Of a stretch of 64,000 nt of DNA, positions 22,510-25,260 are shown piece by piece (position 1 is the first letter of the stretch; every line of letters starts with the position of its first letter). A model generated the notes under the pieces. It saw only the letters and a list, made by a program, of their open reading frames with translations, searched no databases and was not told the origin of the DNA. Source of the DNA: Ruminococcus sp. (GTDB lineage Bacteria > Bacillota > Clostridia > Oscillospirales > Acutalibacteraceae); the NCBI GenBank assembly GCA_017457955.1, contig JAFTGL010000001.1, positions 1 to 64,000 of the forward strand, in the 5' to 3' direction. Position numbers and translations under genes: made by a program.

Positions 22510-22543
22510 AAAGGTAATGCTCACCGCAGCATTACCTTTTTTA
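22510..22543. terminator. Bidirectional terminator between convergent genes
   Basis: AAAGGTAATGCT, loop CACCGC, AGCATTACCTTTTTT: 12-bp perfect stem between the + strand lipoprotein/MITE and the minus-strand GTPase gene. Confidence 0.9.
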
Positions 22544-22549
22544 GTATGA

Positions 22550-25123
22550 TTATCGGTTTTCTATGATACTTCTGATCTCTTCTTCCGCCGCCGTGATCTC
22601 CTCACGGAATTCCCGCGCCGAAACGCGGATCGCGCCGTTGCCGAGGATGATCAGCTGTTCCATGCCGTCGGAGGTGACGACGCGTACGCGGTTGTTTTTG
22701 GCGAGCTTGTAGGAAGCGCGCTCGATGTACATGTCGGCGGTCTCCGCTTCTTTGGTATAGACGATGGTGATGTTGTTGAACTTCTCCACCTCGCGCTCAT
22801 GCCCCTTGATCTTGTACGCGTCAAAGACGAGGATCAGCTCGCATTTTTTGTAGCCCTGATAGTTGCACAGGGTGTTGATCAGCAGATTGCGCGCGGTATC
22901 CATATGTCCGTCGACCAGCTCCCGCAGATTGTCCCACGCGTGGATGACGTTGTAGCCGTCCACGAGGACGTATTCCACGCCGTTGTAGTCGGACGGCAGG
23001 TTTTTCTTGTGCTTGAGCTTGGTATAGTCGGGCGTTTTGTAGCGCTTCGGCTCGCTGTACTGCTTTCTGCGGACAGGTCCGTAGGTCTGCTCAAAAATCG
23101 CCATCAGCTCTTTGTCCAGCGCGAAGATATCCTTCTGACTTTTGTATTTTGACAGATCGCGGGGAGACGGGGAAGAGGTATCTGCTGTTTTACTGCTGAG
23201 CACGCTCGGCAGGTGCATATGCCGCGGGACTTCGTCCCACTTGACCGTGTGACCCGCTCCGTGGGAGCAGAATACCGAATCCGCGGTGTTTTCCACATCG
23301 CTGTCGGCGTCGTAGCCGATAGCCGCGATGACTTCCTCTGTGTTGTGACACGGCTCATAGCCCTTGAAGGCGGTGTTCAGCCTGCCGCTGCCGTGGGTAT
23401 ACTGCATGACCTCTTTGGTGTAGCCGCGCATGGTCGCGACAGGAGCGGTGCCGCTGAGCGTCGCGGTATCGCCGATGGCTTCGGGCGGGTCAAACGCGCC
23501 GTGCATGCGGGTGATATCGTTCATCGCCCTGCCGAGGTTTTCGGCGGGGACGGTGAGGGTGAAGCGGAACACGGGCTCCAGCAGGATACTGCTTGCGGAT
23601 CGCAAGCCCTGCCTGACCGCGCGGTAGGTCGCCTGACGGAAATCCCCGCCCTCGGTATGCTTGGGGTGGGCTTTGCCGGACTTGAGGACGATCTCCATGT
23701 CGGTGATCGGCGAGCCTGTCAGCACGCCGATATGCGTTTTTTCGTAGAGGTGGGTGAGGATCAGCCGCTGACAGTTTTTGTCGAGCTCGTCCTCGGGACA
23801 TTCGGTCTTGATCGTAAGACCGCTGTCACGCTCAGAGGGCTTTAACAGCAGATGTACCTCGGCGTAGTGGCGCAGGGGCTCGAAGTGACCGACGCCTTCT
23901 ACGGTTTCGGCAATGGTTTCCTTATAGATGATACTGCCCTTGCCGAAGCCGACCGAAAAGCCGAACCGTTCTTCGATGATGCTCTGCAATATTTCAAGCT
24001 GTATCTCGCCCATCAGCTGTATCTGTATCTCGCCGTGGCGTTCATTCCACAGCAGTTTGAGCTGTGGATCCTCTGCTTCCAATATCTTCAGCTTTGACAG
24101 CGCCGTATGCGCGTCGATACCGTCGGGCAGGATGACCGAGTAGGTGAGGACGGGTTCGAGCACCGGCAGAACGCCGTCGCCCTCTGCGCCCAGACCGTCG
24201 CCGGGCAGGGTGAAGCTGATCCCCGTCACGGCGCAGACAGTGCCGCTCTCCGCTTCTTCGAGGGTCGTATACTTTTCGCCCGAATAGACGCGGATCTGGT
24301 TGACCTTTTCGCCGTCGGTATTCTTGCGGCTTGGCAGGACGTCCTTGACCTTCAGCCTGCCGCCGGTGATCTTCAGATGGGTGAGCCTGCTGCCCTGTTT
24401 GTCCTCGGATATTTTGTATACCCGCGCGGCGAATTCCTCTCCGTACTTCTTTTCATCTGTATAGCGAACGAGCAGCTGTAAGAATCCCTCTACGCCGATC
24501 AGCTTCAATGCCGAGCCGAACAGGCAGGGGTACAGCCTGCGCCGCCTGACCGCGTCGATGATATCCTTTTCCGCGAGACTGCCCGTTGAATCAAACTTCT
24601 CCAGCAGTCTGTCGTCACACAGGGCGATATTCTCATATAATTGCTCTTTATCATCGCCGAAGTCGACACAGCGGTCGCTGAGCTTTTCTTTCAGTTCATT
24701 CAGGACGCGTTCCTTGTCGGCGCCGTCCATATCCATTTTGTTGACGAAGATGAAGCACGGGACGCGGTATTTTTTCAAAAGCTCCCATAACGTGGCAGTG
24801 TGGCTCTGCACGCCGTCCGTACCGCTGACGACCAGTATCGCGTAGTCGAGCACCTGTAAGGTGCGTTCCGTCTCGGCTGAGAAGTCGACGTGTCCGGGGG
24901 TATCGAGCAGGGTGAATTCCGTGTCCCCATACCGCATGACCGCCTGCTTGGAGAAGATGGTGATGCCGCGGTCGCGCTCCAGCTGAAAATTGTCAAGAAA
25001 GCTGTCCTTGTGGTCGACTCTGCCGAGCTTCGAGATCGCGCCCGACACATACATCATCGCTTCGGACAAGGTCGTTTTGCCCGAATCAACATGCGCGAGT
25101 ATCCCGACGACCGTTTTTTTCAT
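22550..25123 (-). CDS. TetM/EF-G-like translational GTPase fused to a YacP/Rae1-type NYN nuclease
   Basis: 857 residues; start at the complement of 25121-25123 after RBS AAGGTGA. Residues 1-640 resemble ribosomal protection GTPases: G1 AHVDSGKTT near 10, G3 LDTPGHVDF near 74, G4 VNKMD near 128, plus the later EF-G-like domains. A segment with CSHGAGHTVKWDEVP and a basic linker follow. Residues 718-857 form a NYN domain: VDGYNVI (D722), LVFDAYK (D768), AETADMYIE (D797), TSDGMEQ (D819), the acidic set expected for YacP/Rae1, a ribosome-associated A-site mRNA nuclease in Bacillus. Tetracycline resistance is not implied: the fusion is longer than TetM and lies among chromosomal housekeeping genes. 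Role in rescue or quality control is inference. Confidence 0.85.
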   Translation of the reverse strand: MKKTVVGILAHVDSGKTTLSEAMMYVSGAISKLGRVDHKDSFLDNFQLERDRGITIFSKQAVMRYGDTEFTLLDTPGHVDFSAETERTLQVLDYAILVVSGTDGVQSHTATLWELLKKYRVPCFIFVNKMDMDGADKERVLNELKEKLSDRCVDFGDDKEQLYENIALCDDRLLEKFDSTGSLAEKDIIDAVRRRRLYPCLFGSALKLIGVEGFLQLLVRYTDEKKYGEEFAARVYKISEDKQGSRLTHLKITGGRLKVKDVLPSRKNTDGEKVNQIRVYSGEKYTTLEEAESGTVCAVTGISFTLPGDGLGAEGDGVLPVLEPVLTYSVILPDGIDAHTALSKLKILEAEDPQLKLLWNERHGEIQIQLMGEIQLEILQSIIEERFGFSVGFGKGSIIYKETIAETVEGVGHFEPLRHYAEVHLLLKPSERDSGLTIKTECPEDELDKNCQRLILTHLYEKTHIGVLTGSPITDMEIVLKSGKAHPKHTEGGDFRQATYRAVRQGLRSASSILLEPVFRFTLTVPAENLGRAMNDITRMHGAFDPPEAIGDTATLSGTAPVATMRGYTKEVMQYTHGSGRLNTAFKGYEPCHNTEEVIAAIGYDADSDVENTADSVFCSHGAGHTVKWDEVPRHMHLPSVLSSKTADTSSPSPRDLSKYKSQKDIFALDKELMAIFEQTYGPVRRKQYSEPKRYKTPDYTKLKHKKNLPSDYNGVEYVLVDGYNVIHAWDNLRELVDGHMDTARNLLINTLCNYQGYKKCELILVFDAYKIKGHEREVEKFNNITIVYTKEAETADMYIERASYKLAKNNRVRVVTSDGMEQLIILGNGAIRVSAREFREEITAAEEEIRSIIENR

Positions 25124-25260
25124 GCTTTCACCTTCTTGTGCCTTTTCTGTTTCATAGTTTATAATATCCGCCGGCTGTCTGTCAAGAGCGCATGCGGGCT
25201 GACAGCCGTGCGTATGGAAAGAAAGCTGTGATATTTTAGCGATATTTTCATAAATACACC

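Follow-up and report, generated by a model that had tools for sequence, protein, structure and literature searches.

A translational GTPase joined to a YacP/Rae1-type NYN nuclease appears to replace the free nuclease in gut Clostridia

Comparison of gene sequences indicates that, in a group of gut Clostridia, a protein joining a translational GTPase to an NYN nuclease seems to have taken the place of the free nuclease. The gene analysed here is located at 22550..25123 on the minus strand of the window, i.e. the whole stretch of 64,000 nucleotides of Ruminococcus sp. DNA under study, and encodes an EF-G/TetM-like GTPase and a YacP/Rae1-type NYN nuclease in one uninterrupted frame of 857 residues (start ATG 25123, stop at 22550).

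The architecture itself is already recorded in print, as Tet-NYN fusions of ten Clostridiales species, with a suggested function in resistance, were described in Atkinson 2015 (PMC4342817). These fusions share the architecture of the window protein and very probably belong to the same family; they were called Tet proteins, whereas we describe a separate subfamily, the replacement of a free gene and an emptied operon site. The sequence-only reading had considered it possible that related GTPase-NYN proteins exist in other Clostridia, which were indeed found, but knew of no function described for them; in fact, the published fusions have carried since 2015 a tetracycline-resistance suggestion which that reading had not raised. 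A literature search whose reach did not include key Rae1 papers gave no earlier mention of four points described below, namely the gene replacement, the emptied operon site, the split of the subfamily and the loss of the tail; priority is therefore not claimed.

The fusion gene and its conservation

Pfam placed all domains of the protein above cut-off, in agreement with the initial reading of a GTPase followed by a YacP/Rae1-like NYN domain: GTP_EFTU (residues 5–222), EF-G_D2 (231–311), EFG_III (323–394), EFG_IV (397–510), EFG_C (514–594) and NYN_YacP (PF05991; 719–855, E 1.1e-48, 165.8 bits versus a cut-off of 24.6). The GTPase part, comprising domains G to V (residues 1–588; 23360..25123, minus strand), has the five-domain architecture of the EF-G/EF2 family and G motifs with the catalytic histidine. 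Sequence searches identified TetO/TetM as the best solved relatives of residues 2–592 and B. subtilis YacP (5mq8/5mq9) as that of residues 717–851, and the matches listed in a structure comparison of the predicted model were GTPase-type chains over residues 1–628. The nuclease domain (residues 717–857; 22553..22975, minus strand) aligned with B. subtilis Rae1/YacP over 135 residues (E 8.3e-26) with the acidic residues kept. Each of the GTPase residues D13, K16, T17, T55, D74, H78, N128, K129 and D131 and of the nuclease residues D722, D768, D797, E801 and D819 is present in 107/107 aligned fusions, among them the four acidic residues predicted for the NYN fold (D722, D768, D797 and D819).

The two halves are connected by a family-specific C-terminal extension of the GTPase (residues 589–640; 23204..23359, minus strand), which unfused sisters share and at which they end, and by a K-rich linker (residues 641–716; 22976..23203, minus strand). 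About 70 residues of this linker are predicted to be disordered (pLDDT under 50 at 644–713) and are poorly conserved overall. A short conserved motif at residues 667–683 (23075..23125, minus strand) contains a helix predicted with low confidence at 671–681, and its pattern was detected in 84/107 fusions. A basic stretch follows this motif in the otherwise variable linker.

Relatives were found in 251 stretches of genome_contigs, and both halves were encoded in all 80 of the best 80 of 251 that were kept for examination. With 26 loci picked for long frames, 106 other fused loci were obtained; fused relatives include R. bromii ATCC 27255 and one complete Ruminococcus chromosome. An assembly artefact, which had been named beforehand as an explanation should relatives lack the fusion, was rejected on the strength of these 106 loci. 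Comparison with close relatives revealed dN/dS values of 0.11–0.16 for the GTPase (domains G–V) and 0.06–0.14 for the NYN domain in six of eight pairs, the other two being saturated. The fusion is a real protein under selection. Synonymous divergence was roughly two times lower in the NYN part (0.54–0.62) than in the GTPase part (0.96–1.25) in five of the six unsaturated pairs, namely for window positions 22553–22975 compared with loci L014–L017 and L023, L022 being the exception; recombination or RNA constraint could lie behind the lower value.

Immediately 5′ of ATG 25123, the sequence AGAAGGTG was read as ribosome-binding-like. A promoter-like site TTGACA-18-TAAACT (25156..25185, minus strand), a consensus match only, precedes the start codon by about 33 bases; five such sites occur in the stretch versus 2.1 in shuffles. 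Directly 3′ of the stop codon, a terminator-like hairpin of 12 pairs (22510..22539, minus strand; a consensus match only, with six in the stretch versus 3.6 in shuffles) suggests a single-gene unit. A start at TTG 25294 (914 aa) was rejected, since the alignment with relatives begins at ATG 25123 and the promoter-like and ribosome-binding-like sites precede this codon. The neighbours in the window are gapA (assigned by inspection of its sequence), a GDSL lipase and DUF4358, with relA, a Clp ATPase and addAB further off. No neighbour gene was shared among the fused loci, the commonest upstream gene occurring in 7/106 and the commonest downstream gene in 6/103. A mobile or resistance cassette was rejected for the window, as its neighbours look housekeeping and none is common to relatives.

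Fused and free nuclease genes across genomes

Among 146 genomes of the class that were searched, 99 contained an NYN_YacP match, which was fused in 51, free in 44 and unclear in four. The open frames were distributed bimodally, with 51 of 734–937 aa (all but one reaching at least 852) and 44 of 168–216 aa; in-between frames of 295–376 aa in 4/99 genomes are perhaps cut genes. No genome with both a fused and a free NYN above cut-off was found among the 95 classifiable ones; independence would predict about 15, kinship ignored. In one genome (G495) a further match was detected that scored below the cut-off. This mutual exclusion was counted in the 146-genome sample. In another search, 219/398 genomes had a match, and two of them (G205 and G300) hold two matches each. 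Three families contain both kinds. No free yacP was found in the window's own genome, an observation that is weak alone given an assembly only 74% complete; together with the 95 genomes it nevertheless bears out the earlier suggestion that absence of a stand-alone copy would speak for a takeover. An NYN match was absent from one genome of the same family as the window genome (G377) and from three of the same order (G247, G289 and G308), which indicates that the function is dispensable.

The genes rlmB, yacP and sigH are contiguous in 16/20 free loci, and free yacP adjoins rlmB, encoding a 23S methyltransferase, in 13/16 free genomes. The rlmB regions were fetched for 11 of 12 fused genomes (G003 was left out), and in eight of these 11 rlmB and sigH are immediate neighbours and yacP is missing; in the other three, the window's own included, sigH is not beside rlmB. 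For these regions, rlmB was identified by family search, SigH and ThyX were named by search, and cysS and mrnC were assigned by reading of the sequence, the mrnC candidate giving no NCBIfam hit at 1e-30. The window's own genome carries rlmB on contig C9 and the fusion on C2, without the order rlmB-yacP-sigH. As this rlmB region (L160, C9 55500–61500) is rearranged and has no sigH adjoining, the vacated yacP site is visible only in relatives. Taken together, exclusion and the empty site speak for replacement of the gene, not for identity of function. At two loci (L127 and L128) of family f157, which also holds the fusion, a free yacP stands beside sigH but parted from rlmB, a possible intermediate.

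Trees of the GTPase and NYN parts were built with 29 fused proteins, comprising the window protein, two from plasmid records and 26 encoded at the 106 other loci; the structure alignment comprised 78 of the 106 and four unfused proteins. In the tree with free NYN domains, 28 of the 29 fused rows formed one clade at 97/85 and a single one (L152) fell outside; all 29 as one clade was not rejected (p-AU 0.56). The fused NYN domains are compatible with one origin, and most likely the nuclease gene departed from its operon a single time and became attached after the complete end of the GTPase gene. An unfused protein of L. salivarius falls among fused proteins in the GTPase tree (support 84), so loss of the NYN domain is possible there.

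The acidic active-site columns of the fused NYN domains are also invariant in 20 free homologues. Differences were found at the C-terminus, since the window protein ends 20 residues from position 838 and is devoid of the basic tail with the equivalent of Rae1 R166. In 85/107 fusions the chain ends 18–28 residues from that position; the other 22/107 have tails of 40 residues or more, in which the basic motif is missing except in L098. By pattern, a basic EKWRR-type C-terminal helix was detected in 16/20 free proteins versus 2/107 fused ones, and one of these two matches (L014, with a short end) is attributed to chance. Rae1 and the majority of the free homologues carry such a tail, which is no proven family-wide criterion; in B. 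subtilis Rae1, the tail substitution R166P is a loss-of-function suppressor allele (PMC6613710). The nuclease changed after fusion by losing its basic tail in most members. The tail may help free Rae1 to reach the ribosome and would then be dispensable once the GTPase does so. B. subtilis Rae1/YacP thus differs from the fusion in being a free protein encoded in rlmB-yacP-sigH, with a basic C-terminal tail and no GTPase.

A GTPase subfamily beside the tetracycline-protection proteins

Scores, loops and tree position indicate that the GTPase is a subfamily of its own, which is sister to the tetracycline-protection proteins (RPPs) rather than within their clade and has unfused members. The designation TetM/EF-G-like given by the sequence-only reading therefore holds for an EF-G-like relative of TetM, but not for a TetM/RPP protein proper. 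With the tetracycline-protection model NF012153, the window protein scored 414.1 bits, under the curated cut-off of 775. Twelve family members reached 245–443 bits (the lowest being a partial match) and five others 398–442, while EF-G proteins of the same genomes scored up to 402.5, little below the family members. The domain IV loop (Y/F)SPVSTP(A/S)(D/E)FR was present in 6/6 RPPs (TetM-type, TetQ and Tet36-like) and in 0/36 family members, and sequence comparison revealed no Tet C-terminal tail in the subfamily. In the window protein, the domain IV loop at residues 414–425 is FEPLRHYAEVHL; loop 3 at residues 483–496 (23636..23677, minus strand), a subfamily signature replacing the Tet loop, is GKAHPKHTEGGDFR. 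Both are common to the unfused proteins, and of 14 further unfused proteins all matched the first pattern and 12 the second. A tree obtained by a quick method, with long branches flagged, placed the six RPPs on one branch (99), the 36 fused and unfused family members on another (99) and EF-G outside (100). Domain IV is the most conserved domain, with a mean of 0.846 versus 0.69–0.74 in the other folded domains.

Tet(M)/Tet(O) resemble the fusion in their EF-G-like five-domain GTPase with intact GTPase motifs (29.6–30.5% identity among the matches listed) and differ in their domain IV loops, their C-terminus, their position in a sister clade and the lack of a nuclease. Closer are the unfused proteins annotated as "translation factor GTPase family protein", e.g. 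that of Ligilactobacillus salivarius pMP118, which have the same extension and domain IV loops and 45–50% identity to the window protein but end at the extension without linker or NYN domain. The unfused proteins mostly comprise 642–654 residues (one has 724), their ends coinciding with the end of the extension. Their distribution is patchy: they were found in 3/17 chosen genomes with free yacP and in 19/299 genomes of one Bacillus-like order, one genome being counted in both tallies.

Proposed function and competing explanations

On balance, the protein is probably a single-chain, ribosome-targeted mRNA endonuclease replacing free Rae1/YacP; its docking, A-site cleavage, the order of events and the trigger are what we infer. 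If the fusion replaced the free nuclease, it probably delivers an mRNA cut to ribosomes. To our knowledge, Rae1 in B. subtilis needs no GTPase, and no nuclease that cuts mRNA in the A site and carries a translational GTPase of its own has been tested so far; the literature search, which did not extend to key Rae1 papers, returned none either. RelE-type nucleases have a toxin fold and no GTPase. They resemble the proposed enzyme in action only, namely in A-site mRNA cutting (PMC12320835).

Rae1 was described as an A-site mRNA endonuclease in B. subtilis (PMC6613710; PMC12320835), and in TetM it is domain IV that binds the A site (PMC7456112). The GTPase body of the fusion would accordingly dock at the factor site of the ribosome, its domain IV extending into the A site; after GTP hydrolysis has released the GTPase, the tethered NYN domain would cut the A-site mRNA codon of a paused ribosome, which tmRNA would then rescue. 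Genes for tmRNA scored above cut-off in 12/12 genomes checked, eight of them fused. Alternatively, the NYN domain might act on an adjacent ribosome with the GTPase still bound. As Rae1 and a TetM-like domain IV would compete for the A site, their actions must be consecutive or take place on separate ribosomes, and the sequential scheme (dock, hydrolyse GTP, leave, cut) is the simplest because both cannot sit there together. The high conservation of domain IV was counted for the endonuclease reading, since EF-G and TetM insert this domain into the A site; so were the invariant GTPase and nuclease residues, the mutual exclusion of fused and free forms, the emptied operon site in relatives, the clade of fused NYN domains, the tail loss and the tmRNA genes. 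Counted against it were the competition for the A site, the independence of B. subtilis Rae1 from a GTPase, the dispensable function, the incomplete tail loss and the lack of a vacated site in the window's own genome. It is a more tentative idea that the GTPase vacates an A-site block and its dissociation hands the site to the NYN domain ("clear then cut"), so that cleavage would be gated by GTP hydrolysis.

According to the proposal of Atkinson 2015, the NYN domain contributes to antibiotic resistance (PMC4342817). We consider it rather improbable that the fusion is such a drug-protection factor, in which the GTPase would eject tetracycline or a different ligand of the A site and the NYN domain would add an RNase step. 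TetM/TetO are the closest solved relatives of a GTPase whose subfamily is a sister clade of the RPPs, and the chromosomal TetM-like gene Btoyo_0322 of B. toyonensis (307023–308966, 647 codons and a stop) confers resistance to tetracycline, its deletion lowering the MIC from 16 to 1 (PMC5209696). The length of its product equals that of two unfused sisters (647 aa; TetM has 639), a likeness in length only. NF012153 scores far under the cut-off and little above EF-G of the same genomes, the missing RPP loop and the absent Tet tail argue against drug protection, although the loop is not decisive, as a TetM triple loop mutant was reported active (PMC4750697). Moreover, the promoter-like site (consensus only) does not allow for a long leader, relatives have no neighbour gene in common, and one of six fused genomes (G065) carries a true RPP besides the fusion.

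Somewhat less probable still are two independent enzymes on one chain, i.e. an EF-G-like housekeeping GTPase and a Rae1 working as when free, with the fusion fixing their ratio only. The flexible, poorly conserved linker and the separate existence of each half would fit this arrangement, but no genome of the 146-genome sample keeps both forms, the nuclease tail is decayed and the linker motif is kept in 84/107 fusions. We give the lowest probability to a factor for rRNA/tRNA processing or turnover, or a defence nuclease, acting on ribosomal RNA rather than mRNA. NYN/YacP proteins were earlier proposed to function in rRNA and tRNA maturation (cited in PMC4342817), in line with the position of the free gene beside rlmB; against this stand the description of B. 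subtilis Rae1 as an mRNA nuclease (PMC6613710; PMC12320835) and, for defence as well, the housekeeping look of the scanned window neighbours.

Ribosome-associated mRNA cleavage in gut Clostridia may thus run through a GTPase-nuclease often labelled as tetracycline resistance. If the protein is a ribosome-targeted mRNA endonuclease, it would represent a natural, covalently tethered system for studying the way in which Rae1-type nucleases locate stalled ribosomes, and gut surveys would be freed of a class of false resistance calls; if it is a drug-protection factor, it would represent a resistance mechanism with a nuclease. Ten of the 12 family records among the matches listed, fused or unfused, carry the label "TetM/TetW/TetO/TetS family tetracycline resistance". 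These labels are a possible source of false resistance calls, because the family members scored here, a set apart from these records, lie far under the NCBI cut-off. Two human faecal records that are filed as "Bacteriophage sp." and lack annotation, MT835563 (56.5% identity) and MT835514 (50.7% identity), hold a relative over 97% of the query and are perhaps bacterial contigs filed as phage.
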